A stretch of DNA of 20,532 nucleotides, from positions 1 to 20,532 of IMG/VR virus record IMGVR_UViG_3300037245_001929, one strand, 5' to 3'. The stretch comes from a virus. Of this stretch, positions 1,745-20,217 are shown in pieces. The notes beneath the pieces were generated by a model. It was not told the DNA's origin and did not search any database. It worked only from the letters and a program-made list of their open reading frames with translations. How positions within the stretch are numbered: the first letter of the stretch is position 1; each line of letters begins with the position of its first letter. A program made the translations under genes and the position numbers.

Positions 1745-2340
1745 TGCAGTTCTTTGAGGAGTGTTGGCAGAAATTAAGGCATCTGAAGACATTCAACTTC
1801 CAGTTGGATGCAGTGCCGCGAGATTACTACCTTAGGATAGTCCAGGAGCACGCTCCTGAGACGTTCTTAGACGTCGGGTGTGGTACAGGCCTCACATATA
1901 AAGTGCTCTTAGAATCGAATTTAGACCCCTTGTACGTCGGATTAGATATTACACCTAGATTCATTAAACTGCTAAAGAAGAAGTATCCGGAAGCACAATG
2001 GCACGTTGGTAGAGCACAGAATTTACCCTTCCCTGATCGATCGTTTGACATGGTAACCTGTAGAGCTCTCCTAGAGCACCTGCCTGATCCGGCACCAGCT
2101 ATTAGAGAGATGGCTCGAGTAGCCAAAGACACGGTAGTCATCGTATGGCACCTAGACCCAAAGCCAAGAGAGACGCTACGTTTCTTAGAGAAACAGCAGG
2201 TTCACAACAACACTTATAGCAGAAAACGCATATGGGACATACTAGAGGAACTAGACCTGTCTATAGTGGACACTTTAGTACAACAACACAGAGAACATAA
2301 GAGAACCCATACCATCTGGGTATTAAAGCATGGTAAGTAG
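1744..2340 (+). CDS. Class I SAM-dependent methyltransferase
   Basis: This 198-residue protein has the Methyltransf_11-type core: motif I FLDVGCGTG (41-49) for SAM binding, an acidic strand end in VGLDIT (about residues 65-70), the post-II segment AQNLPFPDRSFDMV, and HLPDP. The start at 1744 overlaps the stop of the glycosyltransferase and is preferred over an in-frame upstream ATG at 1687, which would run deep into that gene. The substrate cannot be read from the sequence. Placed between a glycosyltransferase and a second methyltransferase, O-methylation of a sugar or glycan end is the simplest inference. A protein or small-molecule substrate is possible. Confidence 0.85.
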   Translation: MQFFEECWQKLRHLKTFNFQLDAVPRDYYLRIVQEHAPETFLDVGCGTGLTYKVLLESNLDPLYVGLDITPRFIKLLKKKYPEAQWHVGRAQNLPFPDRSFDMVTCRALLEHLPDPAPAIREMARVAKDTVVIVWHLDPKPRETLRFLEKQQVHNNTYSRKRIWDILEELDLSIVDTLVQQHREHKRTHTIWVLKHGK

Positions 2341-2348
2341 GAGGGGAG

Positions 2349-2966
2349 ATGCTAGATTTAGACAAGATTTACGGCGAGAAGTTCTTCACGGGACGGGAGT
2401 GGCTCAAAGGACGCAGCGGACAAATGGTCGAACACTTCAAGTTCATGTATCCGAATACAGAGACAACCCTAGACGTGGGAGCAGCAATAGGGGATTTTAC
2501 AGCTGCATGGTTGAAATTAGGTGTAGATGCCTACGCTCTGGAAGGGAGCGAGCAATGTGTCGAGAAGCTCGTAATTCCGAGGGAAAGAATGATCATAGCA
2601 GATCTCCGCTTTCCGATTGATCTACCAGTTGATGTCCCACAGAAGTATGATATGGTCACCTGTTGGGAAGTCGCAGAACACATCGAGCGAGAGTATGTGG
2701 TTCCCTTTATACAGAACCTAGCCAAGTTCGTAGAGGATGATGGCGTACTAGCCATGAGTATCTGCACCAAAAAGGGCAGATATCATTGCACCGTAGAGCC
2801 TCTAGAGTGGTGGTTCATGCAATTCAAGATGGGTGGATTTACCCACACAGGAAATGAAGATCTCTTCAGAGACCTAGCGGGTAGGGCCCATGGTGGATGG
2901 GAAAAACGTGAGGGAAACATTAGAATGCTTGGCGATAACATGGTCATCTTTGAGAGGGGAGAGTAA
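2349..2966 (+). CDS. Class I SAM-dependent methyltransferase (second)
   Basis: This 205-residue protein is a second Rossmann methyltransferase. Motif I is LDVGAAIGDF (41-50), the ribose-binding acidic residue lies in ALEGSE, and motif IV is YDMVTCWEVAEHIE. The C-terminal part is rich in Trp and His (EPLEWWFMQF), a likely acceptor-binding region. It is clearly diverged from the methyltransferase just upstream, so it is unlikely to be a recent duplicate. GAGGGGAG lies directly before the ATG, an unusually short spacing. Its place in the sugar cassette suggests glycan methylation, but no substrate is visible. Confidence 0.83.
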   Translation: MLDLDKIYGEKFFTGREWLKGRSGQMVEHFKFMYPNTETTLDVGAAIGDFTAAWLKLGVDAYALEGSEQCVEKLVIPRERMIIADLRFPIDLPVDVPQKYDMVTCWEVAEHIEREYVVPFIQNLAKFVEDDGVLAMSICTKKGRYHCTVEPLEWWFMQFKMGGFTHTGNEDLFRDLAGRAHGGWEKREGNIRMLGDNMVIFERGE

Positions 2967-2967
2967 G

Positions 2968-3138
2968 ATGAAATACGTACAGGACGCCTTTCTATTTAGC
3001 GACAATGATGTTGTTTGTGAGGGGGAAATACGCACTCCCATAGATTACTTAGAGAAGGATCCACGTCCAGACTACAGGCTAGTCACCGTAGTAGACGACA
3101 AGTGGGGCTACCTCTTCATCTGGGAGAAGAAAGAGTAA
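2968..3138 (+). CDS. Small hypothetical protein (56 aa)
   Basis: This is a short acidic protein with LFIWEKKE at its C-terminus. I do not recognise a family. The start at 2968 is chosen because it follows the preceding stop by one base with GAGGGGAGAG upstream. An in-frame ATG at 2890 would overlap the methyltransferase by 77 bases. Its stop overlaps the next ATG, so it lies in the same translation-coupled operon. Confidence 0.6.
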   Translation: MKYVQDAFLFSDNDVVCEGEIRTPIDYLEKDPRPDYRLVTVVDDKWGYLFIWEKKE

Positions 3139-3224
3139 TGAAAATATGGCTAGTGCTCATAATCGCTTACATCACAGTGATGGGTATAGTGGCCATAATC
3201 TACGAGAGAAAGAGGGGAGAATAA
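3138..3224 (+). CDS. Tiny single-span membrane protein (28 aa)
   Basis: This 28-residue ORF is almost entirely one hydrophobic segment, roughly residues 3-21, with the sequence IWLVLIIAYITVMGIVAII, followed by the basic tail YERKRGE. It starts at an ATG overlapping the previous stop (TAATG) and ends one base before the next ATG. It is very short but fits the operon pattern exactly, with a GGGGAG site for its downstream neighbour at its end. It could tether a cassette enzyme to the membrane; no function is recognised. Confidence 0.5.
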   Translation: MKIWLVLIIAYITVMGIVAIIYERKRGE

Positions 3225-3225
3225 G

Positions 3226-3348
3226 ATGAAGGATTATCACTATGCAAAGCGGCTCAAAGGAAAATGGTACCGAGAGATCTTGCTTTTCCCGGGCTTTTGG
3301 TGTCTATACCACCACTACGTAAAGTACCTAGACCGGAAAAGAGGATGA
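3226..3348 (+). CDS. Tiny basic aromatic protein (40 aa)
   Basis: This 40-residue ORF has many Lys/Arg and aromatic residues (YHYAKRLKGKW near the start, FPGFWCLYHHYVKYL in the middle), giving an amphipathic or membrane-surface helix. It begins one base after the previous stop with AGAGGGGAG upstream, and ends one base before the PIG-L gene. No family is recognised. Support comes from spacing and the ribosome binding site only. Confidence 0.5.
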   Translation: MKDYHYAKRLKGKWYREILLFPGFWCLYHHYVKYLDRKRG

Positions 3349-3349
3349 A

Positions 3350-3970
3350 ATGAAGAAGCGTATGCTAGTCCTATCAGCACACCCTGACGATGGCGAATTG
3401 GGCTGTGGAGGCACCATAGCCAGATACATAGAGGAAGGCTGGACTATCGTACATGCTGTATTCTGTGCCTCTGAGAACATTGGTACAAGCGTACTGCCCA
3501 AAGAAGTGATGCTCGATGAATTCGAGCAATCCAACCAAGTGCTCGGTACACATAAAACCTTCATGTTTGACTTTCCTCACAGACGGCTCAATGAGGCCAG
3601 ACAGGACATCCTAGAAGAAATGTGCGAATTAAACCGCACGATCGCTCCAGACCTAGTCCTCTTGCCTTCTACTGATGATCTACATCAAGACCATCTGACC
3701 ATATCAAATGAGGGGCTAAGGGCATTCAAAATGAGCAACATGTGGGGGTACGAAATGCTCTGGAACAACCTGATGTTCGATTCCCGCACCTTTGTTATCT
3801 TAGAAGAACGCCATATCGACAAGAAGATAGAGGCACTGTTGCAATATACCACACAACAATTTAAGCCCTACTTTAACCCAGGCTTTGTCAAGTCACTTGC
3901 CAATGTAAGGGGCATTCAGATAGGCCATGCTTACGCAGAGGTCTTTCAGCACGTAAGGGGGATTATTTAA
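3350..3970 (+). CDS. PIG-L/LmbE-family N-deacetylase
   Basis: This 206-residue protein matches the PIG-L (LmbE-like) zinc deacetylases, which remove acetyl from GlcNAc-type amino sugars linked to lipid, nucleotide, inositol or antibiotic scaffolds. The N-terminus has the AHPDDGELGCGG signature (residues 10-21; Asp13 is the general base position, and His11 and Asp14 are zinc ligands in the family). HQDH at 112-115 carries the third zinc ligand. The length is near the usual 200-250. It is followed at once by a 56-residue ORF, an acyl carrier protein and an LpxD-like N-acyltransferase. This suggests it exposes an amine that is then re-acylated. The substrate (UDP-sugar or finished glycan) is not evident. 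Confidence 0.9.
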   Translation: MKKRMLVLSAHPDDGELGCGGTIARYIEEGWTIVHAVFCASENIGTSVLPKEVMLDEFEQSNQVLGTHKTFMFDFPHRRLNEARQDILEEMCELNRTIAPDLVLLPSTDDLHQDHLTISNEGLRAFKMSNMWGYEMLWNNLMFDSRTFVILEERHIDKKIEALLQYTTQQFKPYFNPGFVKSLANVRGIQIGHAYAEVFQHVRGII

Positions 3971-4141
3971 ATGTCAAAAGCAATCGTAAGGTCTATTTTG
4001 GAGAAGCTATATAAGCCAGAAGTTATTGGAGAATTCACTCTTGCAGAGTTAGATATACTCCACACCCTTCTTGACCCGGGTCATGCTGTCCGCCACGAAA
4101 TACTAGACGAGCATTGCCCTATATGTAAACGGGGGACATAA
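3971..4141 (+). CDS. Small hypothetical protein with C-terminal HCPIC (56 aa)
   Basis: This 56-residue ORF begins immediately after the PIG-L stop, with AAGGGGG upstream at a good distance. It ends four bases before the acyl carrier protein ATG. It is helical in character and ends with DEHCPICKRGT, where a His and a CxxC pair could hold a metal. No family is recognised. It sits inside the deacetylase, ACP and acyltransferase block, so it may be a small accessory part of that set. That is position-based inference. Confidence 0.6.
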   Translation: MSKAIVRSILEKLYKPEVIGEFTLAELDILHTLLDPGHAVRHEILDEHCPICKRGT

Positions 4142-4145
4142 TCTA

Positions 4146-4379
4146 ATGCATGCAATGGTAGCAGGAGTCATAGCGGAGTACTTAGCCGTTGATATAGGGG
4201 ATGTGACCCCAAGTGCACATCTCAAAAACACCCTAGGAGCAGATTCTCTAGATTTGATCGAGATATTCAATGTGCTAGAGGAAGAGACAGGTAAGCACTT
4301 CAATAAAGACGCAATCAGAGCAGCCAGTACACTAGACGACATTGTTACGATGCTAGGGGGAACCCATGGCGACCACTAA
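4146..4379 (+). CDS. Acyl carrier protein
   Basis: This 77-residue protein has normal ACP size and the hallmark LGADSLDLIEIFNVLEEE motif. Ser34 in GADSL is the attachment site for 4'-phosphopantetheine, and acidic helix II follows it, the surface that partner enzymes recognise. No phosphopantetheinyl transferase gene is visible, so the host enzyme would be needed for activation. The 3' end overlaps the next gene by 14 bases in another frame, indicating translational coupling with the LpxD-like acyltransferase. It most likely supplies the acyl chain for that enzyme. Phage ACPs are uncommon and their roles are mostly unproven. Confidence 0.92.
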   Translation: MHAMVAGVIAEYLAVDIGDVTPSAHLKNTLGADSLDLIEIFNVLEEETGKHFNKDAIRAASTLDDIVTMLGGTHGDH

Positions 4380-5031
4380 TGAGCACAACCAAGAGAGATG
4401 GGAGTTCGCAATCAAGCGTCTCGAGCTCAATAGCATAGAGAACTCAGGGGCCATTACGGTTAGAAACGACCGCAAGGTTCACACTAAAAACATACATCCA
4501 TCTGCCATTATAGGTGATGGTACAATCATTCAGCCAGGCGCCCAGATAGGCCCTAACGTCACTATAGGTAGAAACTGCCTTATCAAGGCAGGGGCCATTA
4601 TCGGCTACAGAGGCTTCTCATTCGGCTTTACAGAGAACAACAAGCCAATATACTTTGCCCATACTGGATATGTCACTATAGGTGATGATGTACAAATCGG
4701 ATCCTGCACAACAATCAACAGAGGCACCCTAGAAACCACAACTATAGCAGATTACGTCAAGGTAGATGACAGGGTTCATGTGGCACACAATGTTCACATT
4801 GGTGAGAGTAGCTGTATAGTAGCAGGCACAGTTCTCTGTGGCAGCGTCAAACTAGGTAAGCATGTCTGGGTAGGGCCAAATACGGTCATTCTCAACGATC
4901 TATATGTAGCAGACTATACATTAGTTGGCGCCATGGCTAACGTGACCAAGGAATTCGAGAGAGGTGATATACTGGTAGGAAATCCCGCTAAAGCTATCAG
5001 GAATCGTATGGGAGATTTCCCCAATGCCTAA
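4366..5031 (+). CDS. LpxD-like acyl-ACP-dependent sugar N-acyltransferase
   Basis: This 221-residue left-handed beta-helix protein has repeated hexapeptides (IIGDGTIIQPGAQIGPNVTIG and onward) from residue 43 to about 195. It matches the central part of LpxD (UDP-3-O-acylglucosamine N-acyltransferase): GFSFGF at 83-88, IGDDVQIG at 105-112, NRGTLETT at 118-125, and VAHNVHIG at 139-146, whose His141 aligns with the catalytic His of LpxD. It lacks most of the N-terminal uridine-binding domain of full LpxD (about 340 residues), so the acceptor may differ from lipid A precursors. The C-terminus has the GNPAKAIRN ending of hexapeptide acyltransferases. Overlap with the ACP gene implies an acyl-ACP donor. 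The alternative is a PglD-like sugar N-acetyltransferase. Confidence 0.85.
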   Translation: MATTNEHNQERWEFAIKRLELNSIENSGAITVRNDRKVHTKNIHPSAIIGDGTIIQPGAQIGPNVTIGRNCLIKAGAIIGYRGFSFGFTENNKPIYFAHTGYVTIGDDVQIGSCTTINRGTLETTTIADYVKVDDRVHVAHNVHIGESSCIVAGTVLCGSVKLGKHVWVGPNTVILNDLYVADYTLVGAMANVTKEFERGDILVGNPAKAIRNRMGDFPNA

Positions 5032-5188
5032 ATTAGGAAGAGTATCAGGGGAAATCCAAGCAGGAGTCAACCGTGGCTATCTCGGCGCCATCAAAGATGA
5101 CCCTGATGTGCAAGAGCTCTTAAAGGAAGACTCAGAGAGAAAGATGGTTATCACAGTTCGTGATACCATCAATACGAGAGCCTCGTGA
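5024..5188 (+). CDS. Small hypothetical protein (54 aa)
   Basis: This 54-residue charged, mostly helical ORF starts inside the last codons of the acyltransferase gene (8-base overlap) and ends in ATGA with the next ORF. There is no clear Shine-Dalgarno sequence other than weak purines, so it would depend on coupling. No family is recognised. It contains a DDPDVQELLKEDSERK helix. Confidence 0.45.
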   Translation: MPKLGRVSGEIQAGVNRGYLGAIKDDPDVQELLKEDSERKMVITVRDTINTRAS

Positions 5189-5307
5189 TGAGCAGCTCTA
5201 GCTCACGCTCTACACCATCGCCACGTTTCATGTGGCGTGATCTCTGGGGATGGCCATTAGGACATCTCGTACTGTGGTATTCTAGGTTAAAGAGGTTGCT
5301 TAAATGA
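5188..5307 (+). CDS. Small Ser-rich protein with RFMxRDLWGWPLGH motif (copy 1)
   Basis: This 39-residue ORF starts with a Ser run (SSSSSRSTPSP), then RFMWRDLWGWPLGH and an aromatic/basic helix (LVLWYSRLKRLLK). A second gene in the window, at 8429-8623, has the same motif at its C-terminus, with 13 of 14 motif residues identical but different codons (GAT/GAC, CTC/CTT, GGA/GGT, TTA/CTT). Conserved protein with divergent codons shows that this is a real, selected coding sequence. The C-terminal half looks amphipathic and could bind membranes. It overlaps both neighbours by ATGA. Function unknown. Confidence 0.65.
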   Translation: MSSSSSRSTPSPRFMWRDLWGWPLGHLVLWYSRLKRLLK

Positions 5308-6383
5308 GGATGATTTACATCCATAAAAGCCTAAATGCCAAACTGGAAGGGTGGGATGGCAACGTACACAATGTAGAGACTAAGAACATCCTCGCTACAG
5401 TGGATTTCGCTACAGACGGTCATCTTTTATTTCTAGAGGCCCTGCTAGAAGAAAACGTGTTTAGTGAGATACTGGTGATCATCGAATCCGCCCGGCAGCC
5501 TGGACGCCTAAAAATAGGCAACATTAATATAATAGTCATACCCGCAATCAAGCCCTACATGAAGTCCTTTAGAAAGGACGATGTACTCTACTGGCGTGGA
5601 GGGTATGACTGGTGGTGGGCACTTCTAGACAAGCTACCAGGAAACTGGCACCTCTATTATGGAGCAGGTACACCAAGGGCAGGTTGGCCACAATGGGACG
5701 TAATCCTCTGGGAAGGAGAGCAATCAATCACTAAACGGGGCAAATTATACATTCCCTGGAGCAAACCGGTCAATACAGACATATTTAACTTCAAACCGGG
5801 GAATACACCATATGATGTGATGACGTCACCCTCTAAGATATTCGATATCAAGCAACAGTATAAAACGATCGATGCAATGAAGGCTTATCAAAAGCGATAT
5901 GGCAAGGTGTTAAGTGTTATCATGCCTGGAGCATACAGAAGCTCAAGAGAGACCTCTAGAGTCAATCGAATGATTATAGCAGAGAAACTGCCTGTTTATA
6001 GACCAGGATATGTCCCTAGAGACGAGTTAGCCGTCCTGTACAACAAGACCAAGCTTATGACCCACCATGCAAGCGGCTTAAATGATCGATGTGTATTAGA
6101 AGCTATGATGTGTGGTGTTCCTCTTTTATCACTCTCAGAAGGAGGCGGACGCTATCCAAAATGGGTAAAAACCATGAGGGTGCTCGCAAAGGGCGCGGAT
6201 CCGGATAATCTAGCTCAAGCAATTCATCATATGCTCAATAACCTCCCTGACAGGGAAGAGGCTGCAAAGGCCGCGGCCAAACATAACTCTATAACACCAA
6301 CAGTAGAAAGCTTCAAGAAACTAGTACCATTACTCCGCCAACCCAAGAACAGAGCATTGCTCGTTAAGGAGTATTTGGCATGA
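5304..6383 (+). CDS. GT-B glycosyltransferase (GT4-like)
   Basis: This 359-residue protein has the two-lobed GT-B pattern. The N-terminal lobe has a YWRGGYDWWW region (96-105). The C-terminal lobe has the donor-binding motif GLNDRCVLEAMMCGVPLL (258-275), in which Glu266 is the expected E-x7-E-type nucleotide-sugar contact, followed by LSEGGG. The C-terminal helix region ends with KRLV-like basic segments. Start 5304 overlaps the previous stop (ATGA); a second in-frame ATG lies six bases on. It closes the sugar cassette right after the ACP and LpxD-like genes, so its sugar or acceptor may be an N-acylated amino sugar. Donor and acceptor cannot be read from sequence. Confidence 0.8.
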   Translation: MRMIYIHKSLNAKLEGWDGNVHNVETKNILATVDFATDGHLLFLEALLEENVFSEILVIIESARQPGRLKIGNINIIVIPAIKPYMKSFRKDDVLYWRGGYDWWWALLDKLPGNWHLYYGAGTPRAGWPQWDVILWEGEQSITKRGKLYIPWSKPVNTDIFNFKPGNTPYDVMTSPSKIFDIKQQYKTIDAMKAYQKRYGKVLSVIMPGAYRSSRETSRVNRMIIAEKLPVYRPGYVPRDELAVLYNKTKLMTHHASGLNDRCVLEAMMCGVPLLSLSEGGGRYPKWVKTMRVLAKGADPDNLAQAIHHMLNNLPDREEAAKAAAKHNSITPTVESFKKLVPLLRQPKNRALLVKEYLA

Positions 6384-6994: not shown

Positions 6995-7039
6995 ACATAC
7001 TTATCCTTATCACTTCATAGCAAGGGGAGAATACAATGT

Positions 7040-7369
7040 ATGAAAGGACAGATAGAGAAGGACTCAATAGCAGGACAGCTTAAAGCAGCAGGAGTATCAG
7101 ATACAGATAGAGTATACTACATGCTCCATGGCTACTACCCAATACATGACTTCTGTGGAGCAGCCCTCAAACCTCAAGACAATATAGTGTATGCAACCAG
7201 CAGTAAGCTAATGAAAGCATCAGTCACAGGGGGTACATGGGAGGTTGCCAAAGCAACCGTTGGAGCGACAGGCTCCCAACAGGCTGAAACCAAAAGGTTC
7301 AGGCTCATCATCCTAACCATTAATGACAGAACAATGACCGTAGACCCCAAGAGATGTATTAGGATATAA
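7040..7369 (+). CDS. Hypothetical phage protein (109 aa)
   Basis: This 109-residue soluble protein is preceded by AAGGGGAG ten bases before the ATG at 7040. Another ATG at 7036, in a different frame, opens only a 15-codon ORF. Features include an aromatic segment DRVYYMLHGYYPIHDFCG, a central KLMKASVTGGTWEVAKATVG, and a beta-rich end with two Cys in total. No family is recognised. It is the last gene before the inverted-repeat region and the small terminase candidate. Confidence 0.6.
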   Translation: MKGQIEKDSIAGQLKAAGVSDTDRVYYMLHGYYPIHDFCGAALKPQDNIVYATSSKLMKASVTGGTWEVAKATVGATGSQQAETKRFRLIILTINDRTMTVDPKRCIRI

Positions 7370-7374
7370 GTACC

Positions 7375-7403
7375 AGTTGTTGATCAAATAGCATGCAACA
7401 ACT
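7375..7403 (+). repeat. 29-bp inverted-repeat element, copy 1
   Basis: The 8-base arms AGTTGTTG and CAACAACT are perfectly complementary around a 13-base spacer whose last three bases are ATG. A second copy at 7997-8025 has identical arms and 10 of 13 spacer bases, giving 26 of 29 overall. The copies flank the small terminase candidate. It could be an operator, a start-codon-hiding RNA hairpin or a terminase site. Confidence 0.8.
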
Positions 7404-7458
7404 CCCACACTGTACCACTGAATATACATATACTCCAATACGAGAGAGAGACGAATGA
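7393..7458 (+). CDS. Possible 21-aa leader ORF starting inside the inverted repeat
   Basis: An ATG at the 3' side of the hairpin spacer opens a 21-codon frame beginning MQQL and ending ATGA with the small terminase candidate. The second copy of the hairpin also supplies an ATG that opens a frame beginning MQQL. There is no good Shine-Dalgarno sequence. It may be a coupling leader peptide or chance. Confidence 0.25.
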   Translation: MQQLPHCTTEYTYTPIRERDE

Positions 7459-7868
7459 CTTACGTGACTAAAGAGCAACGTCAGTGCCAAATCATGGAAA
7501 TCCTCCAGGATACGTCTATTCCCTTCCCTAACCGCACCGAACTGTGTGAGCTACTTGGTATCAAGTCACGCTCTAACCTCTACCAGATGTTCTCTCTTGA
7601 AGAGATAGATACCCTCTACACTGATGGTGTAGCCTTTCGCAGAGAGAAGCTTAAGGAGCGTGGGGCAGAGGTGGACGAGGCCCTACTCCTACTGGCCCTG
7701 GCAGGGGATGTGCAGGCAATCAAGCTGTACTACCAACGCCATGAAGGGTGGTCCCCCTCCCAATCTATTGAAGGGAACATTAACCACCACTTCACCCTAG
7801 CAGAGCGCATGCTACAGCTGGAGAAGGAAGAGGCGGTACTGATAGAAGGCCGCGGCGATGAAGAGTAA
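7455..7868 (+). CDS. terS: Terminase small subunit candidate
   Basis: This 137-residue protein has an N-terminal helix-turn-helix (about 27-47, RTELCELLGIKSRSNLYQMF). It then has a central helical segment GDVQAIKLYYQRHEGW (84-99), which closely resembles the conserved centre of phage small terminases. The C-terminus is acidic. Small terminases bind the packaging start site as a ring and hand DNA to the large subunit. The gene lies upstream of the large terminase, with five small genes between. The ATG follows only weak purines (GAGAGAGAG). The flanking inverted repeats could be its DNA target. The remaining doubt is whether it is instead another HTH regulator. Confidence 0.7.
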   Translation: MTYVTKEQRQCQIMEILQDTSIPFPNRTELCELLGIKSRSNLYQMFSLEEIDTLYTDGVAFRREKLKERGAEVDEALLLLALAGDVQAIKLYYQRHEGWSPSQSIEGNINHHFTLAERMLQLEKEEAVLIEGRGDEE

Positions 7869-8014
7869 GGGGTACCCCTCCACCCCCTCCACCACTTAGT
7901 GTAATAGTGTACGGTCACTATCGTTTCTCAATCCAACCATGAGTTTCGAATGAAATGGGTTCATATATCCAATTTAATTCTAACACATATTTATGGAGTT
8001 GTTGATTAAATAAA
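7869..8014 (+). other. Non-coding interval with small inverted repeats
   Basis: This 146-base gap holds the palindrome GGGGTACCCC (7870-7879), a pyrimidine-rich run, ATAGTG/CACTAT (7904-7909 and 7916-7921), ATGAA/TTCAT (7950-7954 and 7960-7964), and the left arm of the second 29-bp element. No T-run follows any hairpin and no convincing -35/-10 pair was found. It may include a packaging or regulatory site. Confidence 0.4.
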
Positions 8015-8025
8015 ATGCAACAACT
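7997..8025 (+). repeat. 29-bp inverted-repeat element, copy 2
   Basis: Arms AGTTGTTG (7997-8004) and CAACAACT (8018-8025) surround a 13-base AT-rich spacer ending in ATG, as in copy 1. Here the ATG is a candidate start of the HTH gene, so the element overlaps that gene's beginning. This position fits an autoregulatory operator or a translational block. Confidence 0.8.
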
Positions 8026-8233
8026 GGAATCCCGTATGCTCTCAAAATCACAAAGATTAGTCATTGCCAAGTCGATCGTTACGCCTGGACTCTCAAACAG
8101 GGAGGTGGCGAGACGCGCCGGAGTGGATGAGAAGACCGTTAGGAACTATCGTGGGAAGACAAGTCCGCACATAGATATACAGGTGACGCGGGGTCTAGGA
8201 TCTCAACAGTATCGTCAGAAGCGGACAAGATGA
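8015..8233 (+). CDS. Small helix-turn-helix DNA-binding protein
   Basis: This 72-residue basic protein has a clear helix-turn-helix at about 26-46 (LSNREVARRAGVDEKTVRNY), the pattern of many phage and resolvase-type recognition helices. A basic tail follows. The first ATG (8015) lies in the inverted repeat without a Shine-Dalgarno site at proper distance. The in-frame ATG at 8036 has a weak GGAA before it and may be the true start. The stop overlaps the next ATG as ATGA. Because the same inverted repeat appears at its own start and upstream of the small terminase gene, this protein is a good candidate to bind it, although that is inferred from position. Confidence 0.7.
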   Translation: MQQLESRMLSKSQRLVIAKSIVTPGLSNREVARRAGVDEKTVRNYRGKTSPHIDIQVTRGLGSQQYRQKRTR

Positions 8234-8454
8234 CACCAGAGAAAGAAGAAAGAAAGCATAAATTCCACTGCCCTCTTTGTTCTGCCAAGCTCATCAAGAG
8301 AGGACTAATCAAGAAGGAAGGAGTTCCTGGGTTGGTCTACCAGACTCTCGCACTTGGGTGTTGGCACTGTCAGGAGTGCCTTACTAACTTCCACATACTA
8401 ATTACAAGGGACTGTACAAGGAGAGAAGATGACAGGATACAAAGGAAGTACTAG
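8230..8454 (+). CDS. Zinc-ribbon protein (74 aa)
   Basis: This 74-residue protein has two Cys knuckles, CPLC (14-17) and CWHC (44-47, with Cys50 close by), separated by 26 residues. This spacing is typical of a Cys4 zinc ribbon. It is very basic at both ends, which fits nucleic-acid binding. It overlaps the HTH gene by ATGA and the following gene by 26 bases. No specific family is recognised. Confidence 0.65.
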   Translation: MTPEKEERKHKFHCPLCSAKLIKRGLIKKEGVPGLVYQTLALGCWHCQECLTNFHILITRDCTRREDDRIQRKY

Positions 8455-8623
8455 TGCCCTAGCACAGTTGGAGCGCAAGCTCTCAACTAGTTCCTCCTCT
8501 AGTGGGGGAGGATCCACCAGTCGGACCACACCCACTAAGAGGTTCATGTTGAGAGACCTTTGGGGTTGGCCACTTGGACATATAAGGCTACTGATCTATA
8601 GAATGAAACAAGTAAGAACCTAA
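8429..8623 (+). CDS. Small Ser-rich protein with RFMxRDLWGWPLGH motif (copy 2)
   Basis: This 64-residue protein has a Ser/Gly/Thr-rich middle (STSSSSSGGGSTSRTTPT) followed by RFMLRDLWGWPLGH and an aromatic/basic end (IRLLIYRMK). It is a paralogue of the 39-residue protein at 5188-5307. Apart from one position the motif is identical, while synonymous codons differ, which means selection on the peptide. GGAGAGAAG precedes the ATG. The role is unknown. One copy sits in the sugar cassette and one next to the packaging genes. Confidence 0.7.
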   Translation: MTGYKGSTSALAQLERKLSTSSSSSGGGSTSRTTPTKRFMLRDLWGWPLGHIRLLIYRMKQVRT

Positions 8624-8631
8624 AAGAAGAT

Positions 8632-8736
8632 GGGGACAATCGGGCTTCAAGCTCCTATAAGGTGTAGATAGCTCAGGGCTACTCGGATCGATTGTTTCCA
8701 TGTTACAGGAGGGCTGGAGACAGCCCTCCAACACCT
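8632..8736 (+). ncRNA. Structured RNA region upstream of the bS21 genes
   Basis: Three nested or competing pairings are visible. GGGGACAATCG (8632-8642) pairs with CGATTGTTTCC (8689-8699) over 11 positions with two G-U pairs. GGAGGGCTG (8708-8716) and CAGCCCTCC (8721-8729) form a perfect 9-bp stem with a GAGA (GNRA) tetraloop. AGGTGT (8660-8665) matches ACACCT (8731-8736). AGGGCT also occurs at 8675-8680, so it could compete for the same partner. There is no T-run, so it is not a normal terminator. It may be a leader controlling the genes at 8749 and 8832. Confidence 0.5.
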
Positions 8737-8748
8737 ACGGAGAACAGC

Positions 8749-8841
8749 ATGCCCCTCGACAAAGCTAAACCACTTGAGTTGGGAGACGACTTAAGTAGTC
8801 GCTCCAACGTAGCTGCTTTAAGGAGAACTGTATGCCATTAG
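8749..8841 (+). CDS. Short ORF with bS21-like N-terminus (30 aa)
   Basis: This 30-residue frame begins MPLDKAKPLE, matching the first ten residues of the bS21 gene that follows (MPLERAKPLQ) with 7 identities and 3 conservative changes. Its ribosome site GGAGAACAGC also mirrors the GGAGAACTGT before bS21. This looks like a partial tandem duplication. The rest ends in a segment NVAALRRTV, faintly like the bS21 helix, then stops 10 bases inside bS21. It may be a leader peptide whose translation couples to bS21. Confidence 0.45.
   Translation: MPLDKAKPLELGDDLSSRSNVAALRRTVCH
8778..8808 (+). promoter_or_regulatory. Hairpin just before the bS21 Shine-Dalgarno
   Basis: CGACT (8787-8791) and AGTCG (8797-8801) form an inner stem. 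It is extended by GTTGGGAG (8778-8785) pairing with CTCCAAC (8802-8808), giving 12 pairs with two single-base bulges. It ends 11 bases before TAAGGAG, the bS21 ribosome site at 8819-8825. It also lies within the 30-residue ORF. Confidence 0.5.
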
Positions 8842-9047
8842 AAAGAGCAAAGCCGCTACAAGTAGTAGTAAGCGAATTCAAGACCTTTGACGCAGCCGTG
8901 AAGAAGTTTAAAAAGAAAGTAGATAAGGATGGTATCCTCAAGCAGTGTAGGGAGAGACAATCATTCAAGAGTAAATCAAAGAAAAAGTACGATAAACGAA
9001 GGAAAATGGAGTATATAAGAAGGACGTATGGGGGGACTGGTGCCTAA
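8832..9047 (+). CDS. rpsU: Ribosomal protein bS21 homologue
   Basis: This 71-residue protein has the same length as Escherichia coli bS21 and the same layout. A short beta strand (LQVVV) is followed by the helix FKTFDAAVKKFKKKVDKDGILKQCRERQSF, which matches the family pattern FDxALRRFKxxxxKxGxLxExRxRExY, and then a very basic C-terminal helix (KSKSKKKYDKRRKMEYIRR). bS21 sits near the anti-Shine-Dalgarno end of 16S rRNA and helps start translation. Viral bS21 genes are known, and are thought to enter host ribosomes and favour phage messages. TAAGGAG precedes the ATG. The gene overlaps the large terminase start by 20 bases. Confidence 0.85.
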   Translation: MPLERAKPLQVVVSEFKTFDAAVKKFKKKVDKDGILKQCRERQSFKSKSKKKYDKRRKMEYIRRTYGGTGA

Positions 9048-10488
9048 AACTAAAGACTTCCTTAACAAATCTAGAGAATCATTCATGTATTTCAACAATG
9101 CTGTCTGGGGAACCTGGGGTAAGCCCTGGGATAAACAGGTAGAAGTGGCTGATTCCGTCAGAGATTACAAAAGGACGACTGTACGTTCAGGACATTCCAC
9201 CGGTAAATCCTTCTTAGCTGGTAAGCTAGCCATCTGGATACTGTTCTGTTGGAAAGATTCCTACGTCATTACCACAGCTCCCACTCAGCGACAGACGGAT
9301 CTCATCCTATGGGCTGAGATACGGAACTGTTACAACCATGCCCTTATAGACCTTGGTGGTAATTTACTACCGCGGGAAAGCCTGCTGCGTGTGGGTGATA
9401 AGTGGGGAGCCTTCGGCTTCACTACTGGTAAGGGAGCGATTACAGATGTGGGTCAGACGCCCTTTGCCGGCTTCCACAGTACATCAAGGGTCTTCGTGAT
9501 CATAGATGAGGCCGCGGGTGTTGCTCCTGGGCTGTTTGCAGCTGCTGAATCTATCACTACGGGTGACAATGACCGCATACTTGCCATAGGAAACCCCACC
9601 GATCCCGGTGGTGAGTTCGCTAAATCGTTCAAAAGTCCTGCCCCAGACGTACCCGGAGGCTGGAATAAGATAAAGATCTCTACGTTAGACAGCCCGAATG
9701 TTGTAGCTGGTAGGGAAGTTATCCCAGGACTGGCCTCTCCTACGTGGCCCGAGGAGATGAAGGTAGCCTACGGTGAAGGTACACCGATGTACATGAGTAA
9801 GGTACTGGCAGAGTTCCCAGTATTCAGTGACGACGCCCTGATCCCCATGCACTATTTAGATCTAGCAATGGACAGAACGGTAGAAGAGATCGAGGAACGA
9901 ATCAAAGAGAACCCGAAGCTTGTAATGCCTTCCTACAATAACTTGGGCTGCGACATCGCCCGGTTTGGCTCAGACTACAGCGTGCTCTACGAAGCTAAGG
10001 GTGCACACGTAAAGAGATTGGTGAAATACGGACAAAAGGATACGATTCAAGTATCATACAAGATACTTGAGCTTCAAGATAATAAGAAATATGACCGAAT
10101 TAACATCGATGATGACGGCGTTGGGGGTGGTTGCGTTGACTTTCTTAGACGTGAGAAGGAACTTAAGAACATCGTTCGTATTAATGGAGCCGCCAAAGCT
10201 ACTCAGCCCACCAAGTTTTACAACAAAAGAGCACAGCTCTTCTGGAATCTCAGACAGCGTTTTGTGGATAGAGAGGATATTATACTGGATTGTAACTCTA
10301 CCGCAAGTGAGCTTGCTGCCATTGAGTACACATACACTCCTAAGGGTGGTGAGAACGTAGTTCTAATTCAACCTAAGAAAGACATCAAGAAGGTGCTTGG
10401 CTATAGTCCTGACAACAGTGATGCACTGGCATACGCATGTAATAACCTGTCCAGGCGACCATCACCCTCGGCGGTACAATTTGTATAA
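9028..10488 (+). CDS. terL: Terminase large subunit
   Basis: This 486-residue packaging motor ATPase and nuclease has Walker A SGHSTGKS (54-61), Walker B VFVIIDEA (155-162, catalytic Glu161), and the coupling motif AIGNPT (186-191). The RNase H-like nuclease has acidic residues in GCDIARFG (Asp309), NIDDDGVGGG (Asp361-363) and NSDALAYA (Asp465). All expected catalytic residues are present. It pumps DNA through the portal into the prohead and cuts the concatemer. The start at 9028, with AAGGA upstream, overlaps bS21. Confidence 0.96.
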   Translation: MGGLVPKTKDFLNKSRESFMYFNNAVWGTWGKPWDKQVEVADSVRDYKRTTVRSGHSTGKSFLAGKLAIWILFCWKDSYVITTAPTQRQTDLILWAEIRNCYNHALIDLGGNLLPRESLLRVGDKWGAFGFTTGKGAITDVGQTPFAGFHSTSRVFVIIDEAAGVAPGLFAAAESITTGDNDRILAIGNPTDPGGEFAKSFKSPAPDVPGGWNKIKISTLDSPNVVAGREVIPGLASPTWPEEMKVAYGEGTPMYMSKVLAEFPVFSDDALIPMHYLDLAMDRTVEEIEERIKENPKLVMPSYNNLGCDIARFGSDYSVLYEAKGAHVKRLVKYGQKDTIQVSYKILELQDNKKYDRINIDDDGVGGGCVDFLRREKELKNIVRINGAAKATQPTKFYNKRAQLFWNLRQRFVDREDIILDCNSTASELAAIEYTYTPKGGENVVLIQPKKDIKKVLGYSPDNSDALAYACNNLSRRPSPSAVQFV

Positions 10489-10499
10489 GGACCCTAAAT

Positions 10500-12107
10500 A
10501 TGACTATTAGAGGAAGACTACTCAAGTGGTTGCAGGCTGGCGATAAGAAATCCTACTCTGCCGACTGGTTAGCAGATAAGATGGGACAATACAATCAGGC
10601 AGAAGTGATAAATCCCATGGAAAACCACGCTACTGTCCATGCAATTGTTCAGGTTATCTCCCAGAATCTAGCCGCAATTCCAGGTTTAACCCTTGCGGGT
10701 GAGGACGAAGTGTTCGACACTCCACTCCAGAAGCTAATGAAGAAGCCTAATCCACTCGAGTCAGGGTACTCCTTGTTCGAGAAGACTGCTATGTTTATGT
10801 CTTTACAGGGTGAGGCGTTCTGGATCCTGACAGGAAGTGCTGGTATGCAGGCCGGACTTAGTGGTGCCCTCCCTGCTCAGATATGGGCTGTTGCACCCTC
10901 CACCATGCAAGAGGCTCTAGACACCCACGGACAACTTGTGGGTTGGGTCTATACTGCAAACAAGAAAAGGACCACCTTTAAGCCAGAAGAGGTGCTGCAT
11001 TTCAAAAGAACAAATCCGTACAATCCTATCAGGGGCTTGAGCCCCCTGTCTGCCGCACGTTTAGACATGGATACTGATGCGTCTGCTGGTGAATTCGTAA
11101 AGAGATTCTATGAGAACAACGCTACCCCTGGTGGTGTAGTTCAAGTGCCCGGGGAACCCGGTGTTCCAGTTGACGAAGATCTGTACAAGCAGATGAAAGC
11201 ACAGTTTGAAACCCGCCACAAGGGAGTGGTGAACAGCCACAAGGTAGCGATCCTGTCTGAGGGTGTCACCTTTACTCCCACCATGATGTCCTTTATAGAT
11301 CAGCAGTTTCTAGAATCTAGAAAGTGGAATAAAGATCAGCTAGCTATGGTATGGTTGGTTCCTCGTTTGATTATAGGGTCCACCGATGAACTGAACTTCG
11401 CCACAGCACAGGTCTCCCGTAGACAGTTCTATGTGGACTGCCTCCTTCCTCTAGCCAAACTAATCTCAATCAAAATCAACGAAGATTTGTACGATCGCTT
11501 CCAGCCAAAGCACCAGTTCTCTTGGAACCTTGACTCTATAGAAGAGTTGAAGCCTAATGCCGAGATCGTATCCAAGCTGGTTACAGCCTACTGGAACATA
11601 GGCGTACCGATGGTTGATCTGGTTGAAGCCTATGACCTACCGTTCGATCCAGTGTGGGCAGAAGCAGAATCGAGCATGATTCCCTCTAAGGTAAAGATCG
11701 CAGGCGCCCCAGAGCCGGAACCAGTGGCTCCTATAGTGCCTCCAGCACCAGGAGAAGAGGAGGAAATAGAGGATAAGGCCACTACTAAGCTCTTGTTTAG
11801 CAAGCTGAAACGCTTCTTTTTTGAACAGAGACTACAGATTCTCAAGGAAAACACCCCTGAGGTGTGGAAAAAGGAAGAGGAGAAACTACTCAAGAGAGTC
11901 ACTCCTATTATAAAAGGACTATATAGGGAGAAGCCAGACCTGGCTGAGCACCACTTAGACCGCATCGTTGCTCTTAATACCTCTATGAAGGGACAAGTAG
12001 AGAGAGCAAAGAGCGCAAGAGAAGTAAAAGAGATATACACTAACGCCTCTTCAAAGGCATGGAAGATAGCCGAAGCCGAGGTGCAGTTCGCTAAGGAGAC
12101 AATCTAA
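10500..12107 (+). CDS. Portal protein (HK97 family) with C-terminal helical extension
   Basis: This 535-residue protein is the head vertex ring through which DNA passes and onto which the tail connects. The first 400 residues follow the HK97/Phage_portal pattern: AxVHAIVQVISQNLAAIP (45-61), PNPLESGYSLFEKTAMFMSLQGEAFW, VLHFK, NPIRGLSPLSAA, ENNATPGGVVQVPG, and a wing/crown region with TDELNFATAQVSRRQFY. An acidic Pro/Glu linker (402-425) follows, with a 110-residue charged helical tail that ordinary HK97-type portals lack. The tail could bind a scaffold or minor head protein. AAGGA lies before the ATG. The stop overlaps the protease start. Confidence 0.93.
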   Translation: MTIRGRLLKWLQAGDKKSYSADWLADKMGQYNQAEVINPMENHATVHAIVQVISQNLAAIPGLTLAGEDEVFDTPLQKLMKKPNPLESGYSLFEKTAMFMSLQGEAFWILTGSAGMQAGLSGALPAQIWAVAPSTMQEALDTHGQLVGWVYTANKKRTTFKPEEVLHFKRTNPYNPIRGLSPLSAARLDMDTDASAGEFVKRFYENNATPGGVVQVPGEPGVPVDEDLYKQMKAQFETRHKGVVNSHKVAILSEGVTFTPTMMSFIDQQFLESRKWNKDQLAMVWLVPRLIIGSTDELNFATAQVSRRQFYVDCLLPLAKLISIKINEDLYDRFQPKHQFSWNLDSIEELKPNAEIVSKLVTAYWNIGVPMVDLVEAYDLPFDPVWAEAESSMIPSKVKIAGAPEPEPVAPIVPPAPGEEEEIEDKATTKLLFSKLKRFFFEQRLQILKENTPEVWKKEEEKLLKRVTPIIKGLYREKPDLAEHHLDRIVALNTSMKGQVERAKSAREVKEIYTNASSKAWKIAEAEVQFAKETI

Positions 12108-12919
12108 TGTCAGACAAAACCCTATACAAGAGTATGAACTTCGAGGTAAAGGCTACAGACGATGACAATGTCCTTACCTTTATCGGCTCAGATGAGACCG
12201 TAGACAGGTATCAGGAGGTCATTAGGGCAGATGGATGGCAGTTAGATACCTATAAACAGAACCCTGTAGTGATGTTATTCCATAATTACAGCTCATTTCC
12301 AGTAGCTAAGGCCACAAAAGTATGGGTAGAGAACAGTAAACTCATGTTTGACATAGAGTTTGTACCCATGGAAGGCTACAATGAGCACGGTTCTTTAGCC
12401 GATACAGCCAAGAAACTGTACAAAAACGGCTTTATGTCAGCAGTTTCAGTAGGTCTTATGGCCCTGGAGTTTGAATATCCAGAGGATCAGAAGTCAGGTG
12501 TGCATAGGTACATCACTAAGTCTGAGCTTTTAGAGCTCAGCCTAGTTCCGATACCGGCTAACCCTTCTGCTCTAGTAACCTCCCGCAGTATAGCAGATGC
12601 TATGAATGCCGGCGCTGTTGATATCCACGAAGTCAAAGAACTACAGATGGCTCTGGACGAGATGTTGAAGAAGAGCAAAGAGGAAGGGTTTGACTATGAG
12701 GGTGCTGTTGAGAATGCACTCTTAGACCTACGAGATAGAGCAAAGGAAAACCCACAGGACTTCTCATGTGACGAAGTCTGTGAATGTGAAGATTGTAAAG
12801 CCAAATCAATGGCTACAATATATGATCTACTTCTGGAAATCCGGTCAGAGCAGACCAAGGAAGATTCCAAGGAAGAGGATCTCATTCGGCTGTTAAAGAA
12901 GATAGCCGAAAAACCCTAA
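12107..12919 (+). CDS. Prohead protease (HK97 type, family U35)
   Basis: This 270-residue protein is a head maturation protease. The His/Ser/Glu residues expected in this family are His59 in MLFHNYSSFPVAKA, Ser114 in MSAVSVG (110-116), and Glu143 in LLELSLVPIPANPSAL. About 110 extra residues follow the catalytic domain, acidic and with a CDEVCECEDCK cluster near residues 223-233. This tail may serve as a scaffold domain or metal site. It cuts the delta domain from the capsid subunits after prohead assembly. The start overlaps the portal stop by one base. Confidence 0.93.
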   Translation: MSDKTLYKSMNFEVKATDDDNVLTFIGSDETVDRYQEVIRADGWQLDTYKQNPVVMLFHNYSSFPVAKATKVWVENSKLMFDIEFVPMEGYNEHGSLADTAKKLYKNGFMSAVSVGLMALEFEYPEDQKSGVHRYITKSELLELSLVPIPANPSALVTSRSIADAMNAGAVDIHEVKELQMALDEMLKKSKEEGFDYEGAVENALLDLRDRAKENPQDFSCDEVCECEDCKAKSMATIYDLLLEIRSEQTKEDSKEEDLIRLLKKIAEKP

Positions 12920-12939: not shown

Positions 12940-14154
12940 ATGGACGAAAAGAAACTCCGAGGCATGATTGACGATGTCGTGTCTGGTCGTCTAGGTGAGG
13001 TCAAGGTCGAGCAGGAAGAGCGTGATGAAGCTTCCGCTAAGCGGCTTGAGGCCCTAGACACTTCCGTGAAGAACCAGTTGGAAGCTCTGGCCAACAAGCC
13101 AGCAGTTCCAATGGACGTTCCCGTGCCAGGCACGAGCAGGACTGTCCGCCTTTACAAAGGCTACAATCTTGATCGTCAGTGCATGAGTCTGAAGGTTATC
13201 AACCAGGAGAAGCGTGACATGATCGCTACTACTGTAGTTGATGCTCTTGAGAGAGCCATGTCGGCCGCTGGCCGGCCTATGGTTTATACCAAGGCGGCTC
13301 TCGCTGAAGGTGCTGCTGCGACTGGCGGGAACTTAGTTCCTGACGAATTCGCAGATGAGCTTCTGGCATACGCCAGGCTCCAGTCTCTCGCTCTACAGAA
13401 GTGCCGTATCTGGCCTATGGCTGGTATGGTTCTGTATATCCCGGGCGAAGACGGAACGGTAACCGTAGCATACACCAACGAAGCAACAGCAGCTACCCAG
13501 ACGGAGCCTACATACCTCCAGAAGACTCTGACAGCGAAGCGTCTCGATGCTTTCTCTCAGATGTCAGCGGAAGTTGAAGCTGATGCTTCCATCGATCTGG
13601 TCTCAAACCTGTTCGAGCAGTACGCGCAAGCTATTGCCGTCCAGCTAGATTCCGATCTGTTCGTCGGAGCATCCCCATTTACCGGTATCGGCTCAGATGG
13701 CGGTGTCAATGAAATTGACATGGTCTCGGGCGATACAGAGTTCAAAGACATCGACGCGATTTACTACTCGCAGATGATCGGTGAGCTACCGGTGAATAAG
13801 GTTGGCACTCCCGCGTTTTACTTTGGACGGGACATTGGTCATAGGACTCGCTCCCTGAGCGATACCACAGGCCAGCTAATCTGGGGTCAGTTCGCAGGCG
13901 CAGAGCCGAGCCAAATCTATGGTGTGCCGTATCACGTTTCGGATGCGTTCCCGGCTGATGACGTTTCCACTATGGCGGTTGTCTACGGTGACCTAAATAG
14001 GGTTGCTCTAGGTATGCGTCAGGGAATGGAATTCATGATCGACCCATACTCACTGTTCACAGCAAGTCAAGTTCAGACTCGCGTGACCATGCGTGTGGCG
14101 ATGGTTGTGGCCCAGCCTGATGGTCTCGTTCGGTTGATTACTGCCGCTACGTAA
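12940..14154 (+). CDS. Major capsid protein (HK97 fold)
   Basis: This 404-residue protein has an N-terminal coiled-coil delta domain (about 1-65, rich in Glu, Lys, Leu), the usual internal scaffold removed by the protease. A linker follows (AVPMDVPVPGTSR), then the HK97 fold with AAATGGNLVPDEFADELL at about 124-141, a P-domain, and IWGQFAGAEPSQIYGVPYHVSDAFP near residues 310-335. Codon choice differs from other genes: CGN outnumbers AGR for Arg and GC-ending codons are common, as expected of the most highly expressed phage gene. The ribosome site is ACGGAG. Tandem hairpins directly follow the gene. Confidence 0.95.
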   Translation: MDEKKLRGMIDDVVSGRLGEVKVEQEERDEASAKRLEALDTSVKNQLEALANKPAVPMDVPVPGTSRTVRLYKGYNLDRQCMSLKVINQEKRDMIATTVVDALERAMSAAGRPMVYTKAALAEGAAATGGNLVPDEFADELLAYARLQSLALQKCRIWPMAGMVLYIPGEDGTVTVAYTNEATAATQTEPTYLQKTLTAKRLDAFSQMSAEVEADASIDLVSNLFEQYAQAIAVQLDSDLFVGASPFTGIGSDGGVNEIDMVSGDTEFKDIDAIYYSQMIGELPVNKVGTPAFYFGRDIGHRTRSLSDTTGQLIWGQFAGAEPSQIYGVPYHVSDAFPADDVSTMAVVYGDLNRVALGMRQGMEFMIDPYSLFTASQVQTRVTMRVAMVVAQPDGLVRLITAAT

Positions 14155-14414: not shown

Positions 14415-15053
14415 ATGTCAACAACCAGCAGCACTACATCTACATCTAGCAGTACAACAACAACAACCACTCTCCCAATCGAGATCTTTGTCACTACAGA
14501 TGACATAAAGAACTATCTGGGAGATATGGATGAGATTTCCAGCTCTGAAGAGACCCTTCTACAGCAGATGATTGATAGTGTGCAGGCATTATTCGAAGCA
14601 TATATCAACAGGAAACTGGCACGAGATGTCTTTGTAGAGATACATGATGGCGAGTACTCTGACAAGCTATTCCCAAACAATGTACCTGTTTCGTCTATTC
14701 AGTCGATACACCAGTCAATTGACCGGACCTGGGATAGCACTACACTGATGCCCACCACAGAGTATACTATAGCCCACAATACTTATATTCAGCTCTTCAC
14801 CAGAACCCTTAACTACCCTCAGTCAGTGCGAGTTGTCTATACCGCGGGCTACACTACAGATACGTACCCGCCGGACTTAAAGCAGGCTACCATTGAGCAG
14901 GTGGCCTATAAGTTCACCCACGAGTATACGGGTAGGAACTTAGGGATTAGTGCCAGAACATATCAAGATGGTACACTGGCTTACAGGCCGGGCACAATAT
15001 TACCTGGCGTTACAGTCGTACTTAACCGCTATAGAAAGATGAATCTGGGCTAA
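14415..15053 (+). CDS. Head-tail connector (gp6-like) with N-terminal Thr/Ser tract
   Basis: This 212-residue protein begins with 18 or so Ser/Thr residues (2-19) before LPIEIFVTTDDIKNYLG, the normal start of gp6-like or phiE125 gp8-like connectors. The core has helices LLQQMIDSVQALFEAYINRKL and the beta region VRVVYTAGYTTDTYPPDLKQA. These proteins form a ring below the portal. The Thr/Ser tract is an add-on that standard family members lack. It might be exposed on the neck or be a glycosylation target (inferred). The stop overlaps the next ATG. Confidence 0.82.
   Translation: MSTTSSTTSTSSSTTTTTTLPIEIFVTTDDIKNYLGDMDEISSSEETLLQQMIDSVQALFEAYINRKLARDVFVEIHDGEYSDKLFPNNVPVSSIQSIHQSIDRTWDSTTLMPTTEYTIAHNTYIQLFTRTLNYPQSVRVVYTAGYTTDTYPPDLKQATIEQVAYKFTHEYTGRNLGISARTYQDGTLAYRPGTILPGVTVVLNRYRKMNLG
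14418..14471 (+). repeat. Thr/Ser-coding low-complexity tract at the N-terminus of the connector
   Basis: Mixed ACA/ACT/ACC and AGC/TCT codons encode an unbroken run of Thr and Ser. The codons are mixed rather than a pure trinucleotide repeat, which argues for selection on the peptide. Similar tracts occur in the tail tube protein and in minor tail protein M. Confidence 0.85.
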
Positions 15054-15903: not shown

Positions 15904-16383
15904 ATGGCCCAGATTATGGGAAAGGATGCTTCCATATACCTAGGAAACGATATGGTAGCACAAATGGTGGAATACTCCATCAACGTCAGCTCAGAACTGG
16001 CGGGTGAGGCAGAGTTTGGAGATGATTGGGATCGTAAGATTGGTTCCGCTCTCAATAGCTTTACCATCACCATGTCTGGGCTCGCAAGTCTGGTGGACAC
16101 CACAGGTCAAGACATACTTGAGGCAGCCGCTTTAAACGGCACAAGAATCACTAATCTCAAGCTGTTTGTCGAGACAAGAGCTAATGGAGCCAAGTATTGG
16201 TGGGCAGACTATATCAATGACTCGGCAGACGCTGGAGTGTACGTTGAATCAATCAACGTCACATCCCCAAGAGGCGGTGTAGTTGGTTTAGAGATCACTC
16301 TAACAGGTACAGGTACCCTGACCACTGCCACTCACACTACTACAACCACAACAACCTCTACAACAACCACAACCACACCGTAA
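15904..16383 (+). CDS. Tail tube protein, copy 1, with C-terminal Thr tract
   Basis: This 159-residue beta-rich protein is likely a tail tube subunit of the TP901-1/lambda gpV-like group. Typical segments are MAQIMGKDASIY, GEAEFGDDWDRKIGSAL (34-50), SINVTSPRGGVVGLEITLTGTG. After GTG it carries 22 extra residues, almost all Thr (138-159). The following gene encodes a paralogue that lacks this tail. The Thr tail would project from the tube surface if the usual topology applies (inference). AAGGAG precedes the ATG. Confidence 0.85.
   Translation: MAQIMGKDASIYLGNDMVAQMVEYSINVSSELAGEAEFGDDWDRKIGSALNSFTITMSGLASLVDTTGQDILEAAALNGTRITNLKLFVETRANGAKYWWADYINDSADAGVYVESINVTSPRGGVVGLEITLTGTGTLTTATHTTTTTTTSTTTTTTP
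16315..16380 (+). repeat. Thr-coding low-complexity tract at the C-terminus of tail tube copy 1
   Basis: A run of mostly ACA, ACT and ACC codons encodes the last 22 residues. It is absent from the neighbouring paralogue, whose reading frame ends shortly after the shared GTG. Confidence 0.85.
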
Positions 16384-19620: not shown

Positions 19621-20217
19621 ATGACAACATCTTCAACCAGTACCTCAACGAGTACATCAACAACAACTTCAAGTAGTACCTCGACTACTCTTTCCACCTC
19701 CACGAGCACAAGTACTCACACGACCTCTACACACTCCACGACATCGAGCACGTCTAGCACCTCTTCCAGCACGAGCACAAGTACGTCTACACTTAGTACA
19801 GCCAGTACGTCTTCTACTGTCTCCACCTCAAGCACAAGTAGCAGTTCTTCTTCCACAACTACGACTACAGAGCCTTTAAACACCTTTTCCTACATCCCTA
19901 CATATAGTAGTAGAAAGAGAACGAAGCCAAGGATCCTAATAGCAAACCTAGGTGACGGATACCGCACCAGAGTTCCGGATGGTCTCAATTATCTAGACGA
20001 AGAGTGGAGTCTTACCTTTGTGAAGGCAAAAGCCACGATAGACGAGATTGAAGCCTTCTTAGAAGAGCGAGGTGGGTATGGAGCCTTCTTCTGGAGCGAT
20101 CCACGTAGCGAAGTGAGGCAAGTATGGACTTGTGAGGAGTGGAATAGAACCTTCCAAGGTGATAAAGTTGATAAACTGACCTGTAGATTCCGCAAGGAAT
20201 ATGACCTATACGGATAG
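19621..20217 (+). CDS. Minor tail protein M-like with long N-terminal Ser/Thr tract
   Basis: Residues 2-83 of this 198-residue protein are almost only Ser and Thr with a few Leu, His, Ala and Val. Residues 87-198 match the lambda gpM family (Phage_min_tail): LGDGYRTRVPDGLN (110-123), a WSLTF strand, IEAFLEERGGYGAFFWSDP (143-161), CEEW (171-174) and LTCRFRKEY. Lambda gpM has no such tract. gpM lies at the tail tip and helps connect the baseplate-like cone. The tract would add a flexible, possibly glycosylated arm to the tip. AAGGAG lies before the ATG. Confidence 0.88.
   Translation: MTTSSTSTSTSTSTTTSSSTSTTLSTSTSTSTHTTSTHSTTSSTSSTSSSTSTSTSTLSTASTSSTVSTSSTSSSSSSTTTTTEPLNTFSYIPTYSSRKRTKPRILIANLGDGYRTRVPDGLNYLDEEWSLTFVKAKATIDEIEAFLEERGGYGAFFWSDPRSEVRQVWTCEEWNRTFQGDKVDKLTCRFRKEYDLYG
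19624..19869 (+). repeat. Ser/Thr-coding low-complexity tract, about 82 residues
   Basis: Mixed Ser and Thr codons (TCA, TCT, TCC, AGT, AGC, ACA, ACT, ACC, ACG) form the longest such run in the window. Use of six-fold Ser codons shows that the peptide, not a simple DNA repeat, is maintained. The DNA has many AGTAC and GAGCAC-type short repeats that could allow slippage in length. Confidence 0.88.

Follow-up and report, generated by a model that had tools for sequence, protein, structure and literature searches.

The stretch of DNA analysed here (the window) is a single IMG/VR virus record of 20,532 bases, which probably represents a fragment of a tailed phage genome. Within it, a gene for a phage version of the ribosomal protein bS21 is found amid viral genes encoding the small and large terminase subunits (terS and terL), the portal, the head maturation protease and the major capsid protein (MCP). 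The features of this locus are the following:

7455..7868, + strand: terS, small terminase subunit (PHROG 24579, E=1.2e-9)
8015-8233: HTH ORF, between terS and bS21
8230-8454: Zn-ribbon-like ORF, between terS and bS21 (weak matches only)
8429-8623: small ORF, between terS and bS21, without family match
8708..8729, + strand: perfect 9-bp hairpin with a GAGA loop, GGAGGGCTG-GAGA-CAGCCCTCC, located in the leader that precedes the mini-ORF and bS21
8749..8841, + strand: 30-aa mini-ORF MPLDKAKPLELGDDLSSRSNVAALRRTVCH, without family match
8820..8825, + strand: Shine-Dalgarno (SD) sequence of bS21, AAGGAG, 6 nt before the ATG (-9.2 kcal/mol)
8832..9047, + strand: phage bS21 gene (Pfam, NCBIfam, PHROG and PDB profiles, shuffle control, fold)
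9028..10488, + strand: terL, large terminase subunit (PHROG 2, E=5.3e-32; tblastn matches in 372 phage records)
10500..12107, + strand: portal protein, 3' of terL (PHROG 2662, E=1.6e-66)
12107..12919, + strand: head maturation protease (PHROG 80, E=2.2e-21)
12940..14154, + strand: major capsid protein, HK97 type (PHROG 10, E=5.5e-37)

The preliminary description of this DNA had placed bS21 between the two terminase genes. This is correct as to order, and the gene does overlap terL, by 20 nt if the latter starts at the ATG at 9028 or by 8 nt if the alternative GTG at 9040 is used, but it is not adjacent to terS, as four short ORFs intervene. No terminator-like sites were found on the plus strand from 7300 to 10700 and this, together with the same-strand overlap with terL, fits the co-transcription of bS21 with the packaging genes, which would presumably place its expression late. 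Neither tRNAs nor Rfam families were detected in the search of the window.

Several other elements of the window deserve mention. A cluster at 776-6383 has the appearance of an island for the modification of surface glycans or lipids and contains glycosyltransferases, two methyltransferases, a PIG-L deacetylase, an acyl carrier protein encoded by the phage (4146-4379) and a hexapeptide-repeat transferase (4366-5031). The small ORFs at 5188-5306 and 8429-8623 have in common the motif RFM[LW]RDLWGWPLGH, located after a Ser/Thr-rich stretch and, judging from this resemblance, are a paralogous mini-protein pair of the phage. Two copies (90% identical) of a 29-nt element with 8-nt inverted ends, AGTTGTTGAT.AAATA..ATGCAACAACT, lie on either side of terS, at 7375-7403 and 7997-8025, and possibly represent a packaging or operator site. 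Finally, three proteins of the virion region have terminal low-complexity stretches rich in Ser/Thr, for which AC/TC-rich repeats are the coding DNA (14415-14470, 16326-16383 and 19621-19880).

The bS21 ORF starts with an ATG at 8832, stops with a TAA at 9045-9047 and encodes 71 residues, comprising an N-terminal extension of 8-9 residues and a conserved domain (residues 10-64), with KKKYDKRRKMEYIRRTY as the C-terminal helix. The protein passed the curated cut-offs of both Pfam PF01165 (E=2.8e-9, 37 bits, cut-off 27) and NCBIfam TIGR00030 (36.7 bits, cut-off 28.95), and it also matched PHROG 21469, annotated as "ribosomal protein S21" (E=2.2e-7), and bS21 chains in the PDB (E from 5.7e-6). Against a profile of cellular bS21s, from whose construction the window protein was left out, it scored 54.1 bits, while the remaining ORFs of the window all scored 1.8 bits or less. 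A fortuitous resemblance to bS21, which might be suspected in a short and basic protein (23 Lys and Arg among 71 residues), has a practically negligible chance of being true, because the best of 5000 composition-matched shuffles reached only 12.5 bits, two libraries of curated families were matched and the fold also agrees. Indeed, the AlphaFold model (mean pLDDT 76, pTM 0.40) predicts helices at residues 19-33, 35-43 and 48-66, and bS21/mS21 ribosomal chains occupied 19 of the 20 rows returned by Foldseek, none of them with E<=0.001, which is attributable to the chain being so short. VIA-align superimposed the model on bacterial bS21 with Z values of 5.5-6.4 over 55-64 aligned residues. Therefore, the identity put forward in the preliminary description was confirmed by profile matches, scores and predicted fold alike, and it was bS21, and not another small basic protein, that the profile and structure searches retrieved.

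The ORF at 8832-9047 is thus a genuine, although very divergent, phage-encoded bS21, the nearest sampled cellular homolog being 44% identical over 54 residues. It retains the core residues A22, K24, K27, K29, G34, R40 and F/Y45, so its RNA-binding fold looks intact rather than degenerate. On the other hand, it lacks the KPS motif and the Arg in column 53, invariant across the sampled Bacteroidota, and, hence, the rRNA contacts made by its second half may differ.

The region immediately upstream of bS21 has a peculiar organization. The end of the mini-ORF overlaps the start of bS21 by 10 nt, both ORFs are preceded by similar ribosome-binding sites, and their N-termini (MPLERAKPLQ in bS21 and MPLDKAKPLE in the mini-ORF) are identical in 7 of 10 positions, with conservative changes in the other three, and 19 of the 30 corresponding coding bases agree. 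This match ranks second among all pairs of the 347 start sites, and it involves bS21 residues located mostly beyond the conserved domain. Such a resemblance suggests that a start cassette was duplicated long ago, an event that may have supplied the N-terminal extension of bS21. The leader hairpin forms part of a region (8624-8870) whose RNA fold has a z of -2.63, and a search of this leader against Rfam gave no match of note. Elsewhere in the window, a ribosome-binding cassette (AGAGGGGAGAATAAGATGAA) is repeated ahead of different ORFs, at 2953-2972, 3211-3230 and 7023-7043.

With respect to viral relatives, tblastn did not reveal any for this bS21 in 50,697 phage records (E<=0.01) or in plasmids, whereas a profile search for viral bS21 recovered 23 loci. 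In those examined, the identifiable flanking genes encoded DNA ligase, GroEL, an ATPase and Hsp20/ClpX-like proteins, and no terminase; the window terL had no match in 12 viral records tested, in a search run without a positive control. Single-sequence searches of IMG/VR yielded no close relatives of either terL or the portal, and a profile recovered 80 distant terL relatives (27-39% identity). No bS21 was found in the flanks covered for these 80 relatives, some of which extended for less than 3 kb on one side, the top match being one of 15.1 bits in an antisense frame. This absence suggests that the bS21 gene was acquired in a lineage-specific manner.

One clue about the origin of the protein lies in its C-terminal part. 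In Flavobacterium johnsoniae, Tyr54 of bS21 stacks on A1534 of the anti-SD tail of 16S rRNA, restraining SD recognition (PMC9976891), and the occlusion of the anti-SD in Flavobacterium depends also on contacts of bS18 and bS6 (PMC8710568). Tyr61 of the phage protein pairs with this Tyr54 in an ungapped alignment, although the match disappears in an alternative one with a 2-residue gap. In sequence sets that were non-random draws of their phyla, a Tyr occupied this column in 86 of the 95 proteins from Bacteroidota, but was absent from all 55 other proteins (18 from Bdellovibrionota, 20 from Cyanobacteriota and 17 from Pseudomonadota). When compared with group profiles, the window bS21 scored 44.1 bits with Tyr-type Bacteroidota and 44.5 with other viral proteins, followed by Cyanobacteriota (38.0), a non-Bacteroidia class of Bacteroidota (36.8), Bdellovibrionota (33.8) and Pseudomonadota (31.3). 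However, the restriction of the comparison to residues 9-55 resulted in a near tie (Bacteroidota 37.5, Cyanobacteriota 38.6, Bdellovibrionota 35.7 and Pseudomonadota 32.0), indicating that the Bacteroidota signal resides in the C-terminal helix. A tree placed the protein within Bacteroidota (support 87/95), albeit with a branch length of 7.05 changes per site and a placement flagged as unsure. Because of this long branch, the phylogeny, which had been expected to disclose the host group, did not provide one.

A single-sequence search of GTDB genomes did not produce any close bS21. The corresponding profile search did recover matches, but their list is biased because its patterns derive from a Bacteroidota-rich alignment. 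At E<=1e-4, 184 of 294 genomes matched for the non-Bacteroidia class, compared with 55 of 198 for the whole Bacteroidota phylum. The bS21 proteins of this class (GTDB loci L293, L296, L306 and L359-L378) lack Tyr54, and SD use in these bacteria is moderate. The class was considered as a donor of the phage gene and rejected, in view of its lower profile score (36.8 against 44.1 bits) and of an SD use that is only moderate.

The usage of SD sequences tells a different story about the host. An SD core precedes 79% of the window genes, against 29% of shuffled upstream sequences (19 genes of at least 110 aa), canonical SDs appear at -12 to -9 throughout, and a purine occupies positions -10 and -11 in nearly all of 29 window starts. 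In contrast, the same measure gave 4% versus 5% shuffled in Tyr-type Bacteroidota (226 genes), a difference that casts doubt on a Bacteroidia host for the phage. In the non-Bacteroidia class the figures were 22% and 10% (310 genes); thus, SD use and the identity of residue 54 seem to vary together within Bacteroidota, with Tyr-type genomes showing no SD use. Three viral loci encoding Bacteroidota-like bS21 (L019, L022 and L023) are devoid of an SD core. The Bacteroidia type was defined by a genome without SDs in which, in most orders, rpsU carries an extended SD below -13 kcal/mol. The extended SD published for Flavobacteriales rpsU (PMC9976891) was recovered by the same method (-12 to -17.7). 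The window departs from this type in its SD-led genes and in the -9.2 kcal/mol of its bS21 SD. The strong SD highlighted in the preliminary description is therefore real as regards the AAGGAG and its 6-nt spacing, but its strength is ordinary for the genes of this phage, so an rpsU-type autoregulation of bS21, also considered, found no support. In addition, no independent evidence for a Bacteroidota host came to light, the promoter motif of this phylum occurring in the window at chance level. Consequently, the Bacteroidia-like signature of bS21 and the SD-led genes of the phage point in opposite directions with regard to the host.

Phage bS21 genes located beside structural genes have already been published, and the window adds a new, divergent example; such a location is common among virus-encoded bS21 genes, although not universal. 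In lake phages, bS21 is transcribed late, together with the structural genes (PMC9723584), and for other phages it has been proposed that the viral protein replaces or supplements that of the host and biases translation toward late messages (PMC6375957, PMC9723584). The huge myophages of Bacteroidetes described by Chen et al. 2022 (PMC9723584) resemble the window in carrying bS21 near terL, portal, protease and MCP, as well as an aromatic residue at the Tyr54 position (in the window, according to the ungapped alignment). However, their bS21 lies on the strand opposite to the structural genes, instead of on the same strand and overlapping terL, their genomes measure about 300 kb, while the window presents HK97-type head genes, and their predicted hosts usually lack SDs, unlike the SD-led window genes. 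Pelagiphage HTVC008M and its metaviromic relatives (Mizuno et al. 2019, PMC6375957) also encode a bS21, which has been suggested to take the place of its cellular counterpart, but no match to the window bS21 was found among isolate phages at E<=0.01. Among cellular proteins, those of Bacteroidia, such as that of F. johnsoniae (PDB 7jil), constitute the best-scoring subgroup and share the Tyr in the ungapped alignment, but they differ in having the KPS motif and the column-53 Arg, in lacking the N-terminal extension and, in Flavobacteriales, in the extended SD before their genes.

All these observations could be integrated in a model that we regard as probable. The phage bS21 would be made late, from the packaging and structural gene block, and would join the host 30S subunit, replacing or adding to host bS21. 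Seated on the platform beside the anti-SD tail of 16S rRNA, it would promote high-level initiation on the SD-led late mRNAs of the phage. The computed basis of this proposal consists of the identity of the protein, its fold, the same-strand overlap with terL and the SD-led phage genes, while late expression, incorporation and message choice are inferred. Given that the genes of the window are SD-led, a protein placed next to the anti-SD would act precisely where such mRNAs are selected. The bS21 of HTVC008M does assemble into E. coli ribosomes; however, in vitro translation by these heterologous ribosomes dropped to about 5% (PMC6375957), so a positive effect of viral bS21 on phage translation is not established.

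Other explanations should be weighed. An unlikely one, though deserving some weight, is that the phage simply supplies extra bS21 for ribosome maturation during heavy late synthesis, with message choice unchanged. The protein is known to join the 30S late and can leave mature ribosomes (PMC9976891), and the retention of the core residues would suit such a function, but a divergence of this extent (44% over 54 residues, 7 changes per site) would not be required. Also rather unlikely is host shutoff, in which the phage bS21 incorporated into ribosomes would occlude the anti-SD tail by means of its Bacteroidia-like Tyr and SD-dependent host translation would fall. The ungapped pairing of Tyr61 with F. 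johnsoniae Tyr54 and the strong inhibition of E. coli ribosomes by a viral bS21 are in line with it; in opposition, the Tyr match is lost in the gapped alignment, the Flavobacterium occlusion needs the bS18 and bS6 contacts too, and the effect would be self-harming for a phage whose late genes are themselves SD-led.

We consider it improbable that the bS21 fold serves outside the ribosome, for instance in RNA binding during packaging or in the control of its own leader RNA. The position of the gene between packaging genes and the strong hairpin in its leader would be compatible with this, and a report places bS21 in the OLE RNP, which is not ribosomal (PMC12054373), but the fold matches almost exclusively ribosomal bS21/mS21 chains. 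Even less probable is that the host is Bacteroidia-like and ignores SDs, and that the altered phage bS21 frees the anti-SD tail, so that ribosomes would prefer the SD-led late phage messages. The coexistence of closest profiles from Bacteroidia with SD-led phage genes is compatible with this possibility, which, if true, would mean a specialised ribosome made by the phage; the Tyr, retained according to the ungapped alignment, argues against a freed tail.

The locus extends the range of phage bS21 to an HK97-type lineage in which the gene overlaps terL. Its combination of strongly SD-led genes with a bS21 whose tail resembles that of Bacteroidia offers a clean case in which to address whether viral bS21 alters the message choice of the ribosome, a question left by the 2019 and 2022 papers, and is the part that deserves a bench test.
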